Shown: positions 1-9,984 of the stretch, piece by piece
Layout: every line of letters starts with the position of its first letter
Numbering within the stretch: the first letter of the stretch is position 1
Assembly (NCBI RefSeq): GCF_000166335.1
Contig: NC_014657.1
Coordinates: 1,780,501 to 1,844,500, forward strand
Length of the DNA: 64,000 bases
Reading direction: 5' to 3'
Source: Caldicellulosiruptor owensensis OL
GTDB lineage: Bacteria; Bacillota; Thermoanaerobacteria; Caldicellulosiruptorales; Caldicellulosiruptoraceae
Made by a program: the position numbers and the translations under genes
The notes under the pieces: generated by a model
What the model was told of the DNA's origin: nothing
Seen by the model: only the letters and a program-made list of their open reading frames with translations
Database searches by the model: none

Positions 1-70
1 AAACAACATAACAAAATCACCCTTTACGCTTGAAAGTTTTTTCTTAACAACTCTTATTATACCACACAAA

Positions 71-98
71 AAACAAAAACCACAGCTTTTGCTGTGGT
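71..98 (-). terminator. Rho-independent terminator after the S-layer-type operon
   Basis: A 7-8 bp perfect stem (ACCACAGC/GCTGTGGT, 79-98) with a four-base loop is followed on the minus strand by TTTTTGTTTTTTG. It lies downstream of the minus-strand genes that end near 463 or 159, so it probably ends that transcript. Confidence 0.75.
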
Positions 99-158
99 AG
101 ATTTTATTTTTACATTTCTGTAAACACATTGCGAACACATTTTCTCTATCTGTTTTTA

Positions 159-462
159 TTATACACTCAATTTTGAGATTTCGCAACACTGTTTGAAGTT
201 AAAATTCTCAAAGGTTTTAGCTACTGGCACAAGCCCTGTTTGAGCTTTTGAGACAGCTGTTTTGTAGCTGTCATGATTTTCTCTGCCGCACCTTATATAA
301 CCGTTTACAATCGTCTCTCCCACCCTGTTGATTGCTATGGTACTCAAAGCCCGGCTTAAAAGCACTTCTCAGGCTTGGCTACTGCCTATAAAAACAGTAG
401 AATCCTGTGTTTTCGCCATATACATAAAGCCGCTGGGAGTTTGGAAATAACAACGAGCAGCA
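159..462 (-). pseudogene. Probable degraded 3' coding tail of the upstream secreted-protein gene
   Basis: Directly after the stop of the 463-2001 gene, the other minus frame reads sensibly (DAARCYFQTPSGFMYMAKTQ onward) to a TGA at 369-371. The same frame then runs on to a TAA at 159-161 with codon use like the neighbours (AGA/AGG, AAA). No ribosome site precedes any start inside this stretch. My reading is that the gene once ran further and was cut by a one-base slip near 463 and a nonsense change at 369. This is inference from reading-frame quality only. The stretch could also be chance open frame or a small unrelated ORF. Confidence 0.35.
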
Positions 463-2001
463 TCAGTTTGTTTTTATAATTGTTGTTGCGTTCGATACCC
501 TACTGTTGTCTTTATCGATCACAAACTCTAACTTTTTGACTTTGAACCCTGCCGGGACAGTTATGTTTGATACCCTTGCAGGTTTTACTGTATGCGTGAT
601 ACTGTCTGGCGTGTAGACGAGGTTACCTTTGTCGTCTGTTCTGACCGTGACAGTGCTCTGTGCCGGCACAACCGATAACTGCAGGCTTGGCTGTTGCAGG
701 CTGGGCTTTACCCTGATCGTGAACGAAATTGATTTTGAGTTGCCCGCGTCGATCCCTTTCTGCCCCTCCCCTGTATTAAACACTACTCTTGCTTTGCCTG
801 AAATTGTAACTGTATTGTCCCCTGGTTTTAACATTGAGGGAGGCAGAGCAACAGTAACCCCCGGCTCTGGAGTTTTGAAGATTACCTCGTCACGTTCCTT
901 TTTTGTCGGTGTTGCTTGTACGTATTTCCCGATAACTGAGCCTGTAACGTTCTGTCCGTTAATTTTCACGTAGTTGATCACTGTCTGGTACTGGATAACA
1001 TCGTTTCGTGTGAGTGTGAGTTTGTCGTAGTAAGGGTCTGTGCCGTTAGAGCCAAGCTTGTCCTCCAAAGAACCAATAATGTGTACATTAATATTTGGTG
1101 GTTGATTGGTTGCAGGATCATACCTTAACACTGCATTGTTTATGTCTGAGCTACTGCCACTGACAACTGTAAGATAGCTGTATGAATCAATTGAACCGGT
1201 AACTGAGTCTGTCTTAACTTTTGGATTACCTTTTTGAAGTATCATTCCCACATAAGTTCTGTATCTCAATCTTCCCTTGCTGTCTTTCCAGATAATTTTG
1301 ACTGCGCCGCTACCTTTTTCATCCACACCGAGGAACACGCCATAAGTTTTTAGGTCGCTAATACTGTGTAGTAGCTGGCTCAAAGGTTGATTTTCATATT
1401 CTTCTCGAAGATTGGCAAGGTTTTCACTAATTGTTTCCCAGCTTTTGTTGGAATAAACGGAAGGGTTGTAACCACTAACACCAAGGTCATGTTTCTGTTC
1501 AGAGGTCAGGCTTGCCCACGGTACAAGCCTATCACGAGTTATGTGTTCTGGTGTGAAGTCCCATGGAAATTTAGAATCGGAAAACGGTGCACCGCTGATA
1601 GAATACCCAAGGTACCTGAACCAGCCTCGTGTTCCGCTTGTTTTGTCCTTCAAAAAATACCCGTTCGGGTCTGCCTTGAAATTTCCATACTCCTGGTTTT
1701 CAGGCACATCCCACGGCTCGCCGTATACTATCTGCCTGCGTTCTGCATAGATTTCGCAGTTGAAGTATAGGTCTTTGCCTTTAATGTTTTTGCTTGGTAG
1801 TATATTACCACTTTTGTCTGCTTGTTGTAGCCAATAACTTCTATTCTGCCCGTTGTAACTATTGTATCCACCGTTATACAAAGTAGTATCATTTGCCTTA
1901 ACGCTCTGCCATATTCCTACTGGTGGGATGATACTAAGTATCAAAGATAATACACACAAAAAAGAAAGAGCTTTCACAAAGCTCCTGTGTCTTTTGAACA
2001 C
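463..2001 (-). CDS. Secreted protein of unknown function, second gene of an S-layer-type operon (possibly DUF5704-like)
   Basis: 512 aa with a GTG start chosen because AGGAGTGAG lies just upstream. It has a basic N-terminus and hydrophobic core (about residues 8-30) ending near VKA-ND, consistent with a signal peptide and export. The body is rich in Tyr, Asn and Gly (NGGYNSYNGQNRSYW near residue 43), and the C-terminal third looks like beta-sandwich repeats (VTISGKARVVFNTGEGQKG, then a TVTVRTDDKGNLVYT segment). It starts 13 bp after the SLH-domain gene, so they are very likely co-transcribed and work at the cell surface. The layout reminds me of DUF5704 proteins of Firmicutes, but I am not sure. 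The C-terminus may be frameshifted near 463. Confidence 0.75.
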   Translation of the reverse strand: MFKRHRSFVKALSFLCVLSLILSIIPPVGIWQSVKANDTTLYNGGYNSYNGQNRSYWLQQADKSGNILPSKNIKGKDLYFNCEIYAERRQIVYGEPWDVPENQEYGNFKADPNGYFLKDKTSGTRGWFRYLGYSISGAPFSDSKFPWDFTPEHITRDRLVPWASLTSEQKHDLGVSGYNPSVYSNKSWETISENLANLREEYENQPLSQLLHSISDLKTYGVFLGVDEKGSGAVKIIWKDSKGRLRYRTYVGMILQKGNPKVKTDSVTGSIDSYSYLTVVSGSSSDINNAVLRYDPATNQPPNINVHIIGSLEDKLGSNGTDPYYDKLTLTRNDVIQYQTVINYVKINGQNVTGSVIGKYVQATPTKKERDEVIFKTPEPGVTVALPPSMLKPGDNTVTISGKARVVFNTGEGQKGIDAGNSKSISFTIRVKPSLQQPSLQLSVVPAQSTVTVRTDDKGNLVYTPDSITHTVKPARVSNITVPAGFKVKKLEFVIDKDNSRVSNATTIIKTN

Positions 2002-2014
2002 TTCAATCTCACTC

Positions 2015-3745
2015 CTATTGCTTATATTTTGGATTTGGTTTTGCTATCTGTAAAGTCATCCCATTTATTTGTGGCTTTGAGGGGTAAATTACAAAGTCAA
2101 CATATTCATCACTGAGCCAGCAGTTATAGTATATATAAACGTCACCATATTGCTTTACAAACCACATTTGCTTTGACCTTAAATACTTTGCTGTATAAGT
2201 GCTTACATCTTTTTTGAACTCATCTCTGTATGCTACTGGAATGTAGTTGATAGCTTTGTTTTTGTCCCACTCTACAATTCCTGTCTTCCCAGCTTCATCA
2301 TACATTAGAGTTTCCGTAATAACGTTGCCACACCTTAATGAAGAAGAATAACAAAAACCAGCCTGAGTTTGTTGGCAAAGCAAGAGCCATATATAATATT
2401 CGTTTGGATAATTTTTAAACATAGTTTTTGCTAATCCCAGAGAAACTGGTTCTTCTATTCTAATCGTTATCTGTTTCTGTGTTGTTGTAACTCCAGCGCT
2501 CAACTGATCTGCATTAAAAATTGATTCAAACTTTTTTGTTTGCGAATCATAACTTACGAATCTGCCAGTTCCTACTTCGTTTTGTGGAATCCAGTATCTA
2601 TACATTTTTACCCTAACCTCATCCAACACATCTCTCTTGTTTTTATCAAACACTCTTGCAATCATCTGGACAGCATCAGCTCTTGTGAGCATTTTTGCTG
2701 GGTTGAAGTAGTAAACGCTAATGTACAGCGCCGACTGCTCAGGAGTTATAATACCCAAATCTGCTAAACGCAACATCGCCTCTCTGTAAAGCTGGGGTAT
2801 CTTACTATAATCCTTGCAGTAGTATGCAAACCTTGTATGGTCTGTCGGGTATTTTCTCGGATAGTTAACAAGATAGTCTTCAAGATACATGTTAAAGTAC
2901 GGGTGTTCTTTGATGTTGTATTTGCCAAAGTAACCTTTGAAAGTCTCTTGATGGTTGAGGTGATATCTAAATGCTATTAACGCAAAGTCTCTCCTGGAAA
3001 GCGGATAACCTTTTTGTGCCCTTATCTCGTCAATTTTACTTACACAGTCTTTATACGTTGTCAGACAAAGTGTATAGTGTAAGTCTCCATCTCTCATAGG
3101 ATCTATCGTAAACATCCAACCCTTTTGCCATGGTCGTGGTGCGTATACTATCTTGTCAGGATACTTTTTCTTGAACTCATCAAGTATTCTCCGGAACGGG
3201 TCGTCGATATACTTGTAAGTTCCCGGAGCTAAACTTACTCCTTTGTACCTGTCCCACACATACTTGATTTGAGTTGTACCATCTGCATACTTGTATTCCA
3301 TCACCAGTAGCTGGTAACCCTGTATAAAATCCAGAAGGTCATAACCTCTAATATCAATTTCCTGGCTCGACAGTGGCCCACCGAAAAAACAAATCCCTCT
3401 CATGAACGCCTCTGTCGGTGGTACTCTCCTGACCTCTATCGGTATGTTCTTGTCCTTGAGTTCTGGCACTGCGTTTATAAGCTTCCACACAATATAGCTT
3501 GCCTGCGCTCTGGTAAGCGGTTTGTCTTTTTTGACCTCTGCTGGTATCAAACCCAGCTTAGCTGCCTTCCCCCAGTAATCCAAAGGCTTGTCTGGCTTTA
3601 CTTTTGCTCCCATCAAAAGCGATGTTACAAACTCGCCTGCTGTGATGTAGTCTATCTTGGCTATGGTTGTCCCAGCCTGTGCTGCCGGGGAGGCAAAACT
3701 CAAAAACAAGCTCAGGATAACTACAAAACTCAAAAGTTTTTTCAT
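2015..3745 (-). CDS. Secreted S-layer homology (SLH) domain protein
   Basis: 576 aa. I place the start at the ATG at 3745, preceded by GGAGTG, rather than the in-frame TTG six bases upstream. A signal peptide is clear (MKKLLSFVVILSLFLSF, cleavage near AQA-GT). Residues about 30-105 resemble an SLH repeat (AGEFVTSLL, WGKAAKLGLIPAE, LTRAQASYIVWKLI). A second SLH-like piece lies near residues 345-395 (ALYISVYYFNPAKMLTRADAV). SLH domains bind pyruvylated secondary cell-wall polymer, so this protein is probably wall-anchored. A CsaB pyruvyl-transferase that would make that ligand is encoded at 44552-46390. The middle and C-terminal parts are aromatic-rich and I do not recognise them. It is the first gene of the pair with the 463-2001 gene. 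Confidence 0.8.
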   Translation of the reverse strand: MKKLLSFVVILSLFLSFASPAAQAGTTIAKIDYITAGEFVTSLLMGAKVKPDKPLDYWGKAAKLGLIPAEVKKDKPLTRAQASYIVWKLINAVPELKDKNIPIEVRRVPPTEAFMRGICFFGGPLSSQEIDIRGYDLLDFIQGYQLLVMEYKYADGTTQIKYVWDRYKGVSLAPGTYKYIDDPFRRILDEFKKKYPDKIVYAPRPWQKGWMFTIDPMRDGDLHYTLCLTTYKDCVSKIDEIRAQKGYPLSRRDFALIAFRYHLNHQETFKGYFGKYNIKEHPYFNMYLEDYLVNYPRKYPTDHTRFAYYCKDYSKIPQLYREAMLRLADLGIITPEQSALYISVYYFNPAKMLTRADAVQMIARVFDKNKRDVLDEVRVKMYRYWIPQNEVGTGRFVSYDSQTKKFESIFNADQLSAGVTTTQKQITIRIEEPVSLGLAKTMFKNYPNEYYIWLLLCQQTQAGFCYSSSLRCGNVITETLMYDEAGKTGIVEWDKNKAINYIPVAYRDEFKKDVSTYTAKYLRSKQMWFVKQYGDVYIYYNCWLSDEYVDFVIYPSKPQINGMTLQIAKPNPKYKQ

Positions 3746-3840
3746 GTCCAATCACTCCTTCTTCTAAAGTTTTGCTTTCATTATTGTTATACCATGTTTT
3801 TAAAATTTTCTACACAAAATTTTGCTTGCTAAAAAAACAA

Positions 3841-3879
3841 AACCACGGCAAGGTTTTGACTGCAGCCTTTTCCGTGGTT
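3841..3879 (-). terminator. Rho-independent terminator
   Basis: AACCACGG and CCGTGGTT form an 8 bp stem around a 23 nt loop. On the minus strand it is followed by TTTGTTTTTTTAG. It lies between the 87-aa gene (ending 4046) and the SLH gene (starting 3745), so it ends transcription of the former. Confidence 0.7.
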
Positions 3880-4045
3880 AATTCCCCTTTGATTTATTTC
3901 ATTCGTGTTTTACTCACCTAAAAACTTTGACACTCTATATAAACACCTAAAAGATACACTACTGGGAAGAAGTATAACTTGATTTTAGCACATTAATTTT
4001 GAATGTGTAACTCCTAAATTTAACTTATACTACCCTTTTTAGTGG

Positions 4046-4309
4046 CTAACTTTTTGAACATTCTTTGCATATAGGGTATTCACCAGCAACATCGTCTTTT
4101 TTCTGAAGACACCCATAGCAGATTTTTAATTTCTCGCCCAAACCATATAGTATCTCATGCGGATTTGTATCATACCTATTTTCGGTGAAAGTACAGAGCC
4201 TCCTAACAAACTCTAAAGTTTTGTCCTCTCCCAGTAGTTCAAACGCTCCAAGTTCATCAAGCTTGTGCAAAACATAGTTGAGCATATAACTGCCACTGTG
4301 ATTTGACAT
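4046..4309 (-). CDS. Small CxxC-CxxC protein of unknown function
   Basis: 87 aa starting at ATG 4309 with a good AAAGGAGTGAT site. The C-terminal third carries two CxxC pairs (ICYGC near residue 70, CKEC near 83) separated by about 15 residues, which suggests a small zinc ribbon. The N-terminal part is helical (MLNYVLHKLDELGAFELL). I do not recognise a family. The end of the IS1182 element (4349) lies only 40 bp upstream of the start, so the original promoter has probably been displaced. The transposase frame overlaps the first 97 bp of this gene in another frame. A terminator follows at 3841-3879. Confidence 0.6.
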   Translation of the reverse strand: MSNHSGSYMLNYVLHKLDELGAFELLGEDKTLEFVRRLCTFTENRYDTNPHEILYGLGEKLKICYGCLQKKDDVAGEYPICKECSKS

Positions 4310-6039
4310 AACCTATCACTCCTTTGTTCTATTATTTTAAAAAATAAAGGGGCTGTCCAAAAACAATAATTTTTAATAACCAGAATCAACCATTTGATGG
4401 CATTAAATGTTAATATTGAACTATGCAGTAAAAAGCAAGAGGGTTGGCTGGCAATTTTGCCCCAACCCTCTATTATTATCTTTGCTAACCTTTCTATGTT
4501 ATAGGCAATACAAACCAAACCCCACTCAAGCTTCACACCCTTCAAGCCCCTGAGCAGGAACCTCCTAAATCCCTTATTATTCTTTATTAACCCAAATACC
4601 GTCTCAACCTCTATCTTCCTTCTGCTGTAAATCTCTTTGCCCTCTTCGCTCAAAAGCCTTTCTCTTACTTCATTCTTTAACTTCTCCAATCTTGGCCTTA
4701 TCCTAAATCTCTTCTTCCATCTCTTGCCTCTGTAACACTTATCTCTGTACTCACATCCATTACATACTTCCTCACATTGATATATCTTCTCCCAACTTAC
4801 AAATCCCCTCTCATTTACATCTATCCTCGGATATAAGTATTTTACCTTCTTACCAGCAGGACAAATATATACATCTTCAGAGGCAATATACTCCCAATTC
4901 CTGCTATTGAACTTGTCCTTCTTAAATTTCCTTGTCTGTTCCAAATCAAATGTGTTATACTTAATGTAGCTATTGATGCCACATTTTTTCAGATGAAGGT
5001 AGTTTTCTTCAGACCCATAGCCACTGTCTGCTATGACATTCTTAGGCATGTGGCCTGTTATCTTCTCCACAAGCTCAAGATGTTCTTTTAAACAGACAGT
5101 GTCTGTGGGACTCTGATGGATGCTAAAACCTATGACAAATCGATTCTGTGTGCCGATTTGTACATTATACCCGGGTTTTAGCATCCCGTTTTTCATATGG
5201 TCATCCTTCATCCTCATAAATGTGGCATCATGGTCTGTTTTTGAAAAGCTATTTCTACCACTTAAGATCTGCTCATAAGACTCATATTTCTTGAGTCTTA
5301 ATATGCAGTCATTTTGGAGAGTTTTTACAAGTTTTTTCACTCTCCTTTCTTTTCTTTTGCTCCCAAAGCTAGCTTCTGCTAGCTTTTGGGAGAGTTCTTC
5401 AACTTTTTGTTCAAGCTCTTGGCTATCATAATCAGCTTCTAAATTGACATCCAACTCGCCAAGAGTTCTGTCTTCTTCCTCGTTTATCCTTTCTATTTCA
5501 TCAAGGATGTTTTTTACTTTTTCTCTTAATTTCCTTTTGTATGTTCTTGTGCTTTTTGCCCATACAAACGTATACTTGTTCGCGTTTGCCTCAATCTTTG
5601 TTCCGTCAAGATAGTAATACTCAAAGTTTACATACCCCAGTTTTACAAGAAGTTCAATAACTTCTGCAAAAATTTCTTCAATGCAATCACCTATTATTTC
5701 TTTTCTGAATCTATTGATAGTTCTGAAATCAGGGGTTTGAAGTTTTGAAAGCCACATAAAGGTTATATTCTCTTGAAGCGCCTTTGCTATCTTTCTTGAA
5801 GAGTATATACCCTGTATGTAAGCATAGATAAGAACTTTCAAAAGCATCAAAGGATGGTAGCTGGAAGTCCCACCACCTTTGTATTTTTCTATTATGGTTG
5901 AGATATCTATTTTATCAACGATTTTATCGATTGCTCTTACCAGATGAGTTTGAGGGATAAAGGCTTCAGGGTCGATTGGCATTATTAATTGGTTGGGGTT
6001 GTATTCTTTAAAGACGATTTTATCATGTTTGCGGGGCAT
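4213..6039 (-). CDS. IS1182-family transposase
   Basis: 608-aa DDE transposase. The N-terminal DUF772-type domain (LVRAIDKIVDKID, YHPLMLLKVLIYAY) is followed by YYLDGTKIEANANKYTFVW, TDHDATFMRM, VIADSGYGSEENY and the C-terminal EVETVFGLIKNNKGFRRFLLR. These supply the catalytic D-D-E: Asp of LDGT, Asp of ADSGY, Glu of VETVFG. A cysteine cluster (CEEVCNGCEYRDKC) is typical of this family. The frame does not stop inside the element. It reads through the terminal repeat and runs about 45 codons into the host flank, overlapping the small CxxC gene. The real family length is probably about 560 residues. The gene is otherwise undamaged. Confidence 0.9.
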   Translation of the reverse strand: MPRKHDKIVFKEYNPNQLIMPIDPEAFIPQTHLVRAIDKIVDKIDISTIIEKYKGGGTSSYHPLMLLKVLIYAYIQGIYSSRKIAKALQENITFMWLSKLQTPDFRTINRFRKEIIGDCIEEIFAEVIELLVKLGYVNFEYYYLDGTKIEANANKYTFVWAKSTRTYKRKLREKVKNILDEIERINEEEDRTLGELDVNLEADYDSQELEQKVEELSQKLAEASFGSKRKERRVKKLVKTLQNDCILRLKKYESYEQILSGRNSFSKTDHDATFMRMKDDHMKNGMLKPGYNVQIGTQNRFVIGFSIHQSPTDTVCLKEHLELVEKITGHMPKNVIADSGYGSEENYLHLKKCGINSYIKYNTFDLEQTRKFKKDKFNSRNWEYIASEDVYICPAGKKVKYLYPRIDVNERGFVSWEKIYQCEEVCNGCEYRDKCYRGKRWKKRFRIRPRLEKLKNEVRERLLSEEGKEIYSRRKIEVETVFGLIKNNKGFRRFLLRGLKGVKLEWGLVCIAYNIERLAKIIIEGWGKIASQPSCFLLHSSILTFNAIKWLILVIKNYCFWTAPLFFKIIEQRSDRLCQITVAVICSTMFCTSLMNLERLNYWERTKL

Positions 6040-6148
6040 ATTGATCCTCCTTATGTAATCATTTTTGAGATATTATATCATAAATATATCATAGTGTAAA
6101 TACAGTAAAAATAAAGAGGCTGTCATCTCATCTTTTTGGACAGCCTCT
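4349..6148 (-). mobile_element. IS1182-family insertion sequence
   Basis: About 1.8 kb. The outer ends carry a 13 bp inverted repeat GGCTGTCCAAAAA (left 4351-4363, right as its complement at 6134-6146) enclosing the transposase gene. The right end also forms a terminator-like hairpin (6115-6148). I see no convincing target duplication, so the exact outer bases are uncertain by a few nucleotides. A near-direct repeat AAAAATAAAG-R-GGCTGTC occurs at both ends (about 4341 and 6107). The element sits between an Rpn-type nuclease pseudogene and the CxxC gene. Confidence 0.75.
6115..6148 (-). terminator. Hairpin terminator at the IS1182 right end
   Basis: A perfect 10 bp stem AGAGGCTGTC/GACAGCCTCT with a 14 nt loop is followed on the minus strand by TTATTTTTAC. 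It lies 10 bp past the stop of the Rpn-type gene. It can serve both as that gene's terminator and as the subterminal hairpin that shields the IS from outside transcription. Confidence 0.65.
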
Positions 6149-6158
6149 TATATAAACC

Positions 6159-7137
6159 TTAGTTAGACAACTCTTTTCTCAGTTCCTTTACCTTTTCCAA
6201 ATCTAATTCTGTAAGTTCTGCAATATCTTCATCGCTAAAACCTCTTTGAATTAGCTTCTTGGCTACCTCGATTTTTGCTTCAATTTTTCCTTCAATTTTT
6301 CCTTCAATTTTCCCTTTCTGTATTCCTTGTATAACTCCTTCGTTGAATTTTTTCATCTGTGCTTCATCCAAAAGTCTTGCAACATTGGATACAAACTCAC
6401 CCATTTTTCTACTCCCCCCTTGCCAAACTCTTTGTGCAAGCTTGTCATACTTTTCTTTGTCTTCCTTTGCAAGCCTTGGTCGAATTACATTCCCTGCCCA
6501 TATCAAAAACCTCTCTAAATTAGCTTGACTAAAACTTTCAAGCTTCGGTTCAATCTCTTTCAGTCTTTTTACAAGCTCTTCTGTGTCGTCTCTTACCTGT
6601 TCAAGGTAGAACACTACTGGACTCAAGATATCCTCTTCCTCTTTGAGCAGAGTGTTCATATCCAATTTTGATATGTTTACAAGAGCGTATTTAAAAATAT
6701 CGTCTTTGAAAATATCAAATTCGCCGATTATTTCTTGTGGTATATCCCACTCTTTCTCAAGCCCGTTGTATGTTACTATAGGGATTATTGCAGGTAGTTT
6801 TTCTGCACCTTCTCTTATTTTTCTTGCCCACAGCAGTATCATGTACTTCAAAAGTCTTTCTGGCATGTCCTCGTCCACTTTTGATTGGTTTTTCAATGAT
6901 AATGTAGAAATATACTTCCCTGTCCTTTAGTTTTGCCTTTGCTATGATGTCTGCCCGCTTTTGCTTAAAAGTTTCATCTACAAACTCTTTATCGGCAAGC
7001 TCAATTGAATCCTCTTTAATCTCTTTTGCCCAGCTGTAGCCTATTACATTTCTAACGAGGAAGAGAATATCTTTTGGATGTTCAAACAAAAACTTAAAGG
7101 TTGAATCATGCTCTTGCGGTGGTAGACTGTTGTTCAT
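6159..7137 (-). pseudogene. Frameshifted Rpn/YhgA-type PD-(D/E)XK nuclease (putative transposase) gene
   Basis: Two minus-strand frames together make one Rpn-family protein of about 325 aa. The first part (from 7137) starts MNNSLPPQEHDSTFKFLF and carries the nuclease core (KRADIIAKAKLKDREVYFY). The second (to 6159) resumes as NQSKVDEDMPERLLKYMILL. The expected family join IEHQSKVD is restored if the T-run at 6889-6893 (A-run on the coding strand) loses one base. The C-terminus has the usual low-complexity GKIEGKIEGKIEAKIE stretch and a helical tail. This family acts as a recombination-promoting nuclease or transposase-like factor. As read, the gene is broken, unless the slip is a sequencing error. 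Confidence 0.85.
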
Positions 7138-7225
7138 ATGTTAACTCCCCCTTTTTTATGTTTACTCCGAAAACAAGGGGGAAGCTTTTTGCTTTTCTAA
7201 TCTTATTCTACCACAGAAAGTTGCA

Positions 7226-7848
7226 ATATTAAAAAAGTTATTCCTCCTTCACCTGAGAAAAAGTTATTTGATGTTTGGAATGTTGAAACTGCCAAAAGAT
7301 TTTTAGAAGCTATCAGAAACGAAACTATTTACTATCCAGTACTACTTGCACTACATACTGGCATGAGTGCTGGAGAAATAGTATCGCTCAAATGGTGCGA
7401 TGTTAATTTTGAAACACGAATAATTAGTGTTGTTAAGACAGAGCATAAAAATAAAGGTTTAAAAATGGTGAATCTAAAAACTAAAACTTCAAAACGTGCC
7501 GTGTATATGAATGATGTTCTATACGATGAACTTAAAAATCTATGTGAAATCACCAAGCCAAAGCCTGATGATTTTGTCTGCCCAAGACTTCCTACTGGCA
7601 ACCTGACAGTTGAATACTTGTCAAAAAGATTTAAAAAATTAGTAAAAAGATATAACTTTTCGGTTATTAGATTTCACGATTTGCGTCATACTTTCGCAAC
7701 ATTAATGTTGTCATTGGGGGTAAATACTAAAATTGTTGCTGAGATTTTAGGTCACAGCGACATCAAACTCACAGCTGATACTTACTCTCATCTCCTACCA
7801 ACTATGCAGGAAAGTGCAATGAAAGAATTTGTTAAGCTATGGAAATAA
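7226..7848 (+). pseudogene. Truncated tyrosine recombinase (phage-type integrase), catalytic domain only
   Basis: The open reading begins without a start at about 7226 (VIPPSPEKKLFDVW) and runs to the TAA at 7846-7848. It covers only the C-terminal catalytic domain, about 205 aa. The N-terminal arm-binding and core-binding domains, usually about 150-170 aa, are missing. Boxes are visible: HDLRHTFATLM (His and Arg), LGHSDIKLTADTYSHLL (His and the nucleophile Tyr). Box I reads TGMSAGEIVSL where the family has TG-x-R, so the first catalytic arginine is replaced. An ATG-start version from 7363 is possible but lacks a ribosome site. The gene ends 36 bp before a tRNA-Trp 3' fragment, the expected position of an element integrase. 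Confidence 0.85.
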
Positions 7849-7884
7849 AGATTTGAGTTTTGAGGTGTAACTCCAGACTTGAAA

Positions 7885-7929
7885 CTCCAAAACCGTCGGC
7901 TGGGGGTTCGAGTCCCTCCGCCCCTGCCA
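7885..7929 (+). other. 3' fragment of a tRNA-Trp gene: attR-type attachment site
   Basis: The 45 nt run from the anticodon loop (CTCCAAA, anticodon CCA = Trp) through the variable region, a complete T-arm (GGGGGTTCGAGTCCCTC) and the acceptor strand CGCCCCT-G-CCA. The 5' half (acceptor 5' strand, D-arm, 5' anticodon stem) is absent, so this is not a functional tRNA. An integrase gene ends 36 bp upstream. Integration into a tRNA 3' end leaves an intact tRNA at one end of the element and such a fragment at the other. With the fragment on the plus strand, the element should extend to the left. Confidence 0.85.
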
Positions 7930-8256
7930 TGTGTTGAGGCAACTAACTTTGCAGTGTAGAAAAAAGTAACAGTAAAAATACAACCAACGGTCTCCCCTAA
8001 TTAGCAAAAAGTGAAAGGGGAAACTTTTTAAATGTTCAGAAAAGGAAAAATAAGAATAGTAACATGTTGTTGTTAAAAGATTTTATTGATCTTTTATACA
8101 AGCTAATGAGTTGTGTGAAAGACCGGTTCAGGATTATTTTTGCATTTCTAGAATTCTACAACCCTATAAATTTTCACAACTACATAAATAGATATCCTTT
8201 AAAGTTATCTGAAAGATGAAAAATTAATTAAGCTTTATCAAGGCCGTGAGAAGATA
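7930..8256. other. Intergenic stretch, presumed host flank, no convincing gene
   Basis: Sequence right of the att fragment. The only open frame of note is 8064-8219 (+), 51 codons, encoding a hydrophobic/aromatic peptide (VKDRFRIIFAFLEFYNPINF). It has no well-placed ribosome site, since the AAAAGG before it is about 18 nt away. It may be a decayed gene fragment, but I cannot name it. I see no RNA gene or repeat here. Confidence 0.4.
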
Positions 8257-8290: not shown

Positions 8291-8369
8291 ACTATTTTAT
8301 TTAATAGAAATATATTCTTGATTTTCATGAGATTTCATTTATAGTATTTCATTTTAATTTTTGTACTTC

Positions 8370-9950
8370 TTATTTCTTAGCCCTGTTGTATGCATTTATT
8401 CTAATTGTTATTAAACGCTGTAGCCCAATTTTGTTTAAAACATTCAAATATTGCTGCCAATCTTTGTTATTGCTCGGATCTAACTGACCTGTTACAAATT
8501 TCATGCAATACTCATCCACAACTGCCATAATATTTGATTCTAGCTCAGCCCTTTCTGCCATTTCTTCTTTTGTAAACATCATGGGTTCTTCTCTTATATA
8601 ATAATATTTTGGTCTATTCATAAACGTTTTCGCAAGTTCTGCATATATAGGAGCATATGTTTCTACAGCTTGAGGATATGCTACCATAAAGCCGTTTGGC
8701 GCTGCAAATGGAAAACCATAATCTTGTAAACTATACTTTCCTGAAGGATTGGTTGGAGTTTGAATATGGTTTAGATATACATATTTATCCCCTTCTTTTT
8801 TATAAGTAACACCATATTCACCATAAGTGTGGAATATCTGTCCTTCTTCACTCAGTGCCCAATTTAAATATTGAAGAAGCCTTTCCAATTTTTCTTTGCT
8901 TATACTTGAATTAAATCCGTTGCCATCTGCAAAATGCAAAGGATTTCTTTTGAAAAAGTAAGCTTTTCCAGGATATGCTGTTGGTACATCCTTGGACCAT
9001 ACCCAGTTTGTATCTTTATCTGTATTTCTATATAGATTATTGTAAGTTCCTATATTTGCAGGATATGCCCACATAATTATTCCTTGCCCTTGGGTTCTAA
9101 ACTTATCTAACTGATCACGAGTTGCTGTAGCATATTCTTTCCAAATGCAACCTGCTTTATAAAGTTTGTTTATCAAAATTAGAGCTTGGCGATAGTTGCT
9201 CTGATTAAATGCAAAAGGCACAAACTTTTTGGTAAGCGGGTCTACATAAGAAATCTGTCGTGGTGCAAGTTCAGGTAAACCATACATCAAAAATATTCCT
9301 GTAAATGCCCAAAGACTTAAGTTACCAGAGACAGCATTCGCGTGTAAATATACAACCTTTCCAGTTTTCTGGCGCAATAATATACATGTTTTGTAAAATT
9401 CATCAACTGTAGTTGGGAACTTCAAATTGTATTTATCGAATATTTCTTTCCTATATAAGAAAGCCATATCAACTGGTGCAATTCTTCTTCCATGAAATGA
9501 ATATACCTTACCATCACTATAACGTACTATTTTGTAAAGGTAATCCCATTCTTCTTTTGTCCATATCTTTAAGTAGTTCGGCCATCTCTTTTTTATTTCC
9601 TCCGGTGTAAAGCCAATTAAATATCCTGCAGCTATCCATTCGTTTAAATTATATTCTGGTCTAAGCGCCCGTATCCAATCTGGTGCCATATTACTTGCAA
9701 AAAGTAAAGACATTTTAGTAACATAATCACTTTGAGGAATATAAATGGTTTTTAAATCTATTCCAAATTTTTCTCTCAACTTCTTTTTGTATAAATCTGC
9801 CACTGCAGGCGGTTGATTAGAGGTGGTATGAGTAGTGATCGTGATTAATTTTTTCGAAGTAGCTGCTTTCCCAAATGAGAATCCTAAGGTTAAAACAGAA
9901 ACCATAAAAGTAATTGTCAGTAAAATCACAAACATTTTTTTGCATTTCAT
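8370..9950 (-). CDS. Extracellular sugar-binding protein of an ABC importer (LplA/YtcQ-like)
   Basis: 526 aa from ATG 9950, preceded by GGGAGG at 9 nt. The in-frame ATG nine bases upstream has no room for a ribosome site. A signal peptide (FVILLTITFMVSVLTL) ends near GKA-AT. There is no lipobox cysteine, unusual for a Gram-positive binding protein. The mature part has the pattern of large family-1 solute-binding proteins (ASNMAPDWIRALRPEYNLNE, LNWALSEEGQIFHTYGE, EEPMMFTKEEMAERAELE). It is the last gene of the operon and would deliver an oligosaccharide to the two permeases. A second binding protein opens the same operon. The substrate cannot be read from the sequence. Confidence 0.85.
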   Translation of the reverse strand: MKCKKMFVILLTITFMVSVLTLGFSFGKAATSKKLITITTHTTSNQPPAVADLYKKKLREKFGIDLKTIYIPQSDYVTKMSLLFASNMAPDWIRALRPEYNLNEWIAAGYLIGFTPEEIKKRWPNYLKIWTKEEWDYLYKIVRYSDGKVYSFHGRRIAPVDMAFLYRKEIFDKYNLKFPTTVDEFYKTCILLRQKTGKVVYLHANAVSGNLSLWAFTGIFLMYGLPELAPRQISYVDPLTKKFVPFAFNQSNYRQALILINKLYKAGCIWKEYATATRDQLDKFRTQGQGIIMWAYPANIGTYNNLYRNTDKDTNWVWSKDVPTAYPGKAYFFKRNPLHFADGNGFNSSISKEKLERLLQYLNWALSEEGQIFHTYGEYGVTYKKEGDKYVYLNHIQTPTNPSGKYSLQDYGFPFAAPNGFMVAYPQAVETYAPIYAELAKTFMNRPKYYYIREEPMMFTKEEMAERAELESNIMAVVDEYCMKFVTGQLDPSNNKDWQQYLNVLNKIGLQRLITIRINAYNRAKK

Positions 9951-9984
9951 TTCTTGCATCCTCCCACTTTTGCATATTCTTTTT

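Follow-up and report, generated by a model that had tools for sequence, protein, structure and literature searches.

A tRNA-Trp island in Caldicellulosiruptor owensensis OL: an 11.3-kb tyrosine-integrase insertion that is very probably the remains of a genus ICE family

The window analysed here is a stretch of 64,000 nucleotides of the Caldicellulosiruptor owensensis OL genome (G000; contig NC_014657.1, positions 1,780,501 to 1,844,500), and plain coordinates below refer to it. From left to right, it begins with a 512-aa N-terminal remnant of a giant surface-type protein (463..2001, minus strand), a gene for a 578-aa protein with a signal-peptide-like start that is the first of a surface-protein operon (2015..3751, minus strand), a copy of a 73-bp repeat (3919..3992, plus strand), an IS element with a DDE transposase (4352..6142, minus strand; ORF 4213-6039; Pfam PF13751/PF05598) and a frameshifted Transposase_31 gene for a YhgA-like, Rpn-type nuclease (6159..7137, minus strand; Pfam PF04754 on both pieces). 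These are followed by a tyrosine integrase relic (7231..7848, plus strand), a displaced 3' part of tRNA-Trp running from the anticodon loop to CCA, which represents the attR core (7885..7929, plus strand), the scar of an older tRNA-Trp element (7930..8210, plus strand), and the conserved chromosomal right flank (8358..9959, minus strand).

The tRNA fragment is identical at 45 of 45 nucleotides to the intact tRNA-Trp (anticodon CCA), starting from its first anticodon-loop base, or at 46 if T7930 is included, and a shared 45-mer is far beyond chance. The intact gene, recognised as such by ARAGORN, lies on the plus strand at G000:C1:1777042-1777117, 3.4 kb to the left of the window. In the whole 2.43-Mb genome (one contig of 2,428,903 bp) the 45 nucleotides are found only in these two places and, thus, tRNA-Trp is single-copy; within the window ARAGORN made no tRNA calls, as expected for a mere fragment. 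An initial annotation of this DNA had claimed the match and a spacing of 36 bp after a tyrosine recombinase gene, and had predicted an intact plus-strand tRNA-Trp to the left. The identity holds base for base, the spacing is exactly 36 bp (7849-7884), with the gene being a relic that ends at 7848, and the upstream search located the predicted tRNA gene with the same 45 nucleotides.

The comparison of this site among relatives shows both empty and filled states. At the empty sites, seen in G002, G004 and G005, about 65 bp separate the end of tRNA-Trp from the right flank, which corresponds to window 8358 onward with 86-88% identity. This flank, with a gene at 8370-9959 whose product we read as solute-binding-protein-like, is 86-96% identical beside tRNA-Trp in G002, G004, G005 and G010, and the left flank (L003:4415-5949), which we read as a GH4-type glycosidase gene, is also kept beside tRNA-Trp in relatives, with 81-97% identity. 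The closest relative of C. owensensis, G010, was ruled out as a clean empty site by the scar of a second integrase. In the filled sites, the distance from the intact tRNA-Trp to the second 45-nt copy is 10 kb in G003, 39 kb in G006, 71 kb in G007 and 59 kb in G008; the second copy begins at the anticodon loop in every one of them, and an integrase adjoins the far-end fragment in G006, G007 and G008. The island that enters the window measures 11,312 bp (11.3 kb) from core start to core start. The empty sites and the 10-71 kb filled sites bear out the proposal that the DNA between tRNA-Trp and its fragment was acquired by tRNA-targeted insertion, and there is no conserved synteny across 7929 in the island-free strains G002, G004 and G005, which join tRNA-Trp to the right flank instead. 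Islander, a catalogue of tRNA-targeted genomic islands, includes an anticodon-centred attachment-site class (PMC4383910). As in Islander islands, an intact tRNA is followed downstream, on the same replicon and in the same orientation, by its displaced cognate 3' fragment, which starts at the anticodon loop; an integrase (the relic at 7231-7848) lies between them, the length falls within 2-200 kb, and the empty site joins the tRNA to the right flank (G002, G004 and G005; scarred in G010). The differences are that the integrase of the window is a pseudogene and that the scar of a second element directly follows.

The integrase relic retains the catalytic-domain half only (Pfam Phage_integrase, PF00589; 96.9 bits): in the alignment with four intact relatives, homology starts at about 7231 and the N-terminal half is gone. 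In tyrosine recombinases, the Arg of the motif HTGM-R-AGEI serves as the first catalytic Arg; the relic carries Ser in its place (AGT, 7366-7368), whereas the four intact relatives (AGG or CGA) and the solved Int structure 6EN0 have Arg in this column. With its N-terminal half missing and this Arg replaced by Ser, the window copy has probably lost integrase activity and, in this respect, would not be a functional ICE. The relic is 88% identical in amino acids to the intact integrase of G007, which likewise lies beside the tRNA-Trp fragment, and further close relatives occupy this position in G008 and in two G011 elements. A scan of named genomes outside the genus gave only distant relatives, with at most 42% identity in the best segment, and the best match among plasmid records reaches about 34%.

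The elements of these relatives indicate what kind of island the relic belonged to. The G007 element encodes a CD1115-family VirD4, which scores 446 bits against a cut-off of 250 bits, together with a CD1110-like, VirB4-like ATPase that scores below its family cut-off, a wall hydrolase that combines SLT and M23 domains, a protein weakly matching a T4SS pilin, a Tad/VirB11-type ATPase, a T2SSF-like protein, a prepilin peptidase, RecT/Bet, a Cas4-like nuclease, a primase-like protein and a 2557-aa surface-type protein. Since integrase, VirD4 and VirB4 lie between its att sites, the G007 element would be an ICE by gene content. The G008 island also contains a VirD4 gene and a close relative of the integrase, and a gene of one VirD4 family lies about 15-19 kb from each of the four intact integrases of the clade. 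Conjugation genes were looked for in the window copy and none was recognised, and the G007 VirD4 has no match anywhere in the C. owensensis genome, where the lack of a VirD4 of this type suggests that the window copy is without the coupling protein of a functional ICE. Nevertheless, because the G007 and G008 islands at the same site, with a close integrase, hold VirD4 (and, in G007, VirB4 too), a degraded ICE is the best reading of the window copy, which takes this label from the elements of its relatives. Among the proteins scanned in the intact elements, which for G007 were a part of the set, no relaxase was recognised, and neither these G007 proteins nor the window island showed phage structural genes. 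A search of one literature library found no paper describing conjugative elements of Caldicellulosiruptor and nothing specific on its mobile elements.

Two further observations concern ICEs of the genus. A second ICE-like group, with a VirD4 about 52-54% identical to that of G007, is present elsewhere in the chromosomes of G001, G002, G004 and G006. In G011, an integrase relative at L064:4187-5290 (G011:C1:2837187-2838290), 80% identical to that of G007 and nearer to that of G008, is followed by a 3' fragment of tRNA-Arg(CCT) and not of tRNA-Trp (also L192; L065), while the intact tRNA-Arg is at the left end of the other ICE of this genome, the right end of which carries a tRNA-Trp fragment. 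Thus, the two G011 ICEs seem to have exchanged halves.

The ends of the window island also match those of its relatives. Between the relic and the tRNA fragment, GGTGTAACTCC (7864..7874, plus strand) repeats, in inverted orientation, the GGAGTTACACC located near the island's left end (G000:C1:1777181-1777191), and inverted pairs are found at corresponding places in G007 (16 bp) and G008 (14 bp), each of them matching within its own element; the GGTGTAACTCC/GGAGTTACACC pair is a plausible candidate for integrase arm-type sites. Moreover, past the tRNA, the first 310 bp or so of the island can be aligned to the left ends of the elements in G007, G008 and G011, and the inverted repeats and this alignment tie both ends of the window island to one element family. 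The 73-bp repeat, with consensus AAAAAATTTGACATTCT-TATAAACACCTAAAA..., has 18 copies in the window island and the relatives' elements, including L003:7331-7402 and 9754-9825 and copies in the G007, G008 and G011 elements. It is often paired and mostly intergenic, occurring also upstream of the surface-protein operon, and it is perhaps a shared regulatory site.

The island contains the surface-protein operon, the nuclease gene and the IS. The 578-aa protein has homologues in the G007 element (73% in amino acids) and at G000:662740 (89%), and open frames of 2174-2562 aa for the giant surface-type protein are present in G004, G006, G007 and G011. An intact 327-aa copy of the nuclease is found at G000:661126-662109; in the window, the frameshifted gene and its upstream DNA abut the broken 5' end of the integrase. 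The initial annotation had placed an S-layer-type operon, the nuclease and the IS on the acquired side, and all of them do lie inside the island, but the operon and the nuclease need not have entered with the element. In addition, the S-layer label finds no support in Pfam, which gave no SLH or S-layer family; the homologues encoded by intact elements are proteins of a giant surface type. Across the genus, there are several loci per genome with a module formed by the Transposase_31 nuclease, a small ORF, the 578-aa protein and the giant surface protein, including window 463-7219, G000:C1:661126-665425 and 176754-179479; N-terminal parts of its copies are conserved, later parts are divergent, and many copies are truncated (e.g., the G005 cluster, 2460-2478 kb). 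A HicA toxin gene and an adjacent HicB-like gene are also located inside the island, at L003:10114-10689, to the left of the window.

Immediately to the right of the tRNA fragment, the scar at 7930-8210 comprises the left end of an older element and a relic of its unrelated integrase gene, intB. Window 7885-8095 is 88.7% identical to the start of the G003 element after the intact tRNA, window 7885-8120 is 80% identical to the G010 DNA after the intact tRNA, and tblastn of G003 IntB identifies the intB relic at 8037-8210 (38.7%, E 4e-5). A longer broken relic of intB is present in G010 and its first bases in G008. In G003, IntB is the first gene of a 10-kb element and is about 25% identical to the ICE integrase; this element, located at tRNA-Trp (L049:3707-13673), also carries ORFs reading as a primase-helicase and a sigma-factor-like protein. 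The arrangement suggests that an older element at tRNA-Trp decayed and that the ICE then inserted between its scar and the tRNA, which would represent tandem accretion. Because 7930-8210 is the scar of an older element, acquired DNA extends beyond 7929, so that the right end proposed at this position stands for the 11.3-kb insertion, but not for the acquired DNA as a whole, which continues for about 280 bp.

Window 1-7929, together with the 3.4 kb to its left, is very probably an 11.3-kb tyrosine-integrase insertion at the 3' half of tRNA-Trp and the remains of the ICE family of the genus. The incoming element would have brought a tRNA copy spanning the anticodon loop to CCA, and a crossover in the anticodon loop would have fused this copy to the 5' half of the host gene. 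The left end would thereby have regained a complete tRNA, and the 3' half originally present in the host would have been moved to the right end, where it now forms 7885-7929. The incoming element would belong to the Caldicellulosiruptor ICEs that are still large and equipped with conjugation genes in relatives, and the window copy may itself have arrived by past conjugative transfer. In C. owensensis, decay has removed the N-terminal half of the integrase and its first catalytic Arg as well as the coupling protein gene, IS elements and the nuclease/surface-protein block now occupy the island space, and the scar directly to the right is that of an older element on the same tRNA with a different integrase. 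One base counts against this account. The variable-loop base is C in the intact tRNA-Trp, in the fragment and in G010, and T in the other genomes compared; since the 3' half of the intact gene should be derived from the element, a donor of the T lineage would have left T there. Thus, either the donor was a near relative of the C. owensensis lineage or the two copies have been homogenised.

A phage source, in which the insertion would be a prophage or phage satellite and the integrase relic phage-derived, is improbable. Tyrosine integrases of this superfamily, which is covered by PHROG family 1, are common in phages, and the unrelated element that G003 has at this site is small, with the gene reading as a primase-helicase; however, the four intact integrases nearest to the relic are all in elements with one VirD4 family, the best match among phage records is only 34% identical, and the closest match among solved structures is the Int protein 6EN0/6EMY, which we take to be the integrase of the conjugative transposon Tn1549. 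These three lines of evidence disfavour a prophage origin. A chance or segmental duplication of tRNA sequence, unrelated to integration, can be practically dismissed as the source of the 45-nt fragment: tRNA gene fragments do occur, and nothing further speaks for such a duplication, but four further genomes have the fragment at the far end of their islands, next to an integrase in G006, G007 and G008, and the comparison of empty and filled sites refutes this explanation.

The origin of the cargo is more evenly balanced. There is about an even chance that the surface-protein operon and the nuclease are not ICE cargo and result from later intragenomic copying, which also removed the 5' half of the integrase. 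If one IS is left out, window 1603-7128 shares 96-97% identity with G000:661126-665425, a copy of the block with no tRNA near it that lies, by our reading, upstream of the trigger factor, clpP and clpX genes, whereas the copy in the G007 ICE is only 73-77% similar. The IS that sits within the block is missing from the 661-665 kb copy (96% identical), and the similarity to other copies of the nuclease upstream region reaches 7219, 12 bp short of the first integrase base. Thus, in view of the 96-97% identical copy elsewhere in the genome, the block may have arrived later than the ICE. Nevertheless, the G007 element has the operon in the same relative orientation beside the same 73-bp repeat, and the operon could be original cargo that afterwards either became homogenised with the 661 kb locus or was copied there.

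The ICE remnant at tRNA-Trp resembles ICEs with a CD1115-family VirD4 and a CD1110-like VirB4, which are relatives of Tn1549-type elements, in that its integrase is nearest to 6EN0/6EMY among solved structures and the G007 VirD4 scores above the CD1115 cut-off. It differs from them in that the VirB4 of its relatives falls below the family cut-off, their elements, which are inserted in tRNA-Trp or tRNA-Arg, encode a giant surface-type protein and carry Tad-like pilus genes, and the window copy keeps no recognised conjugation gene. CGI48 is a composite island in tRNA-Trp of Shewanella putrefaciens with 50-bp attachment repeats, and its excision has been shown (PMC8978831). It shares with the window island the use of tRNA-Trp as a recurrent landing site, the attachment repeats and a composite history; however, its host is unrelated, it excises whereas the window copy is dead, and it is nested whereas accretion here is in tandem.

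The window island is, thus, a known kind of system, and the main points of the initial reading hold, now in exact form: what had been drawn from 45 bases becomes a demonstrated insertion with exact ends and a most likely element kind. The tandem scar, the shift to a tRNA-Arg target in G011 and the large intact relatives add interest to it. In broader terms, one proposal, to which we give equal weight for and against, is that tRNA-Trp is a serial landing site at which genus-restricted ICEs with a Tad-like pilus and a giant surface protein compete with elements of unrelated integrases, that tRNA-Arg(CCT) is a further target to which the ICE integrase clade can shift, and that two G011 ICEs swapped halves, each having one tRNA-Trp and one tRNA-Arg end. 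Members of Caldicellulosiruptor are extreme thermophiles used for biomass conversion; the intact elements of the relatives are candidates for natural gene transfer in this genus, and their integrase/tRNA pairs could serve as site-specific integration tools at about 70 °C.
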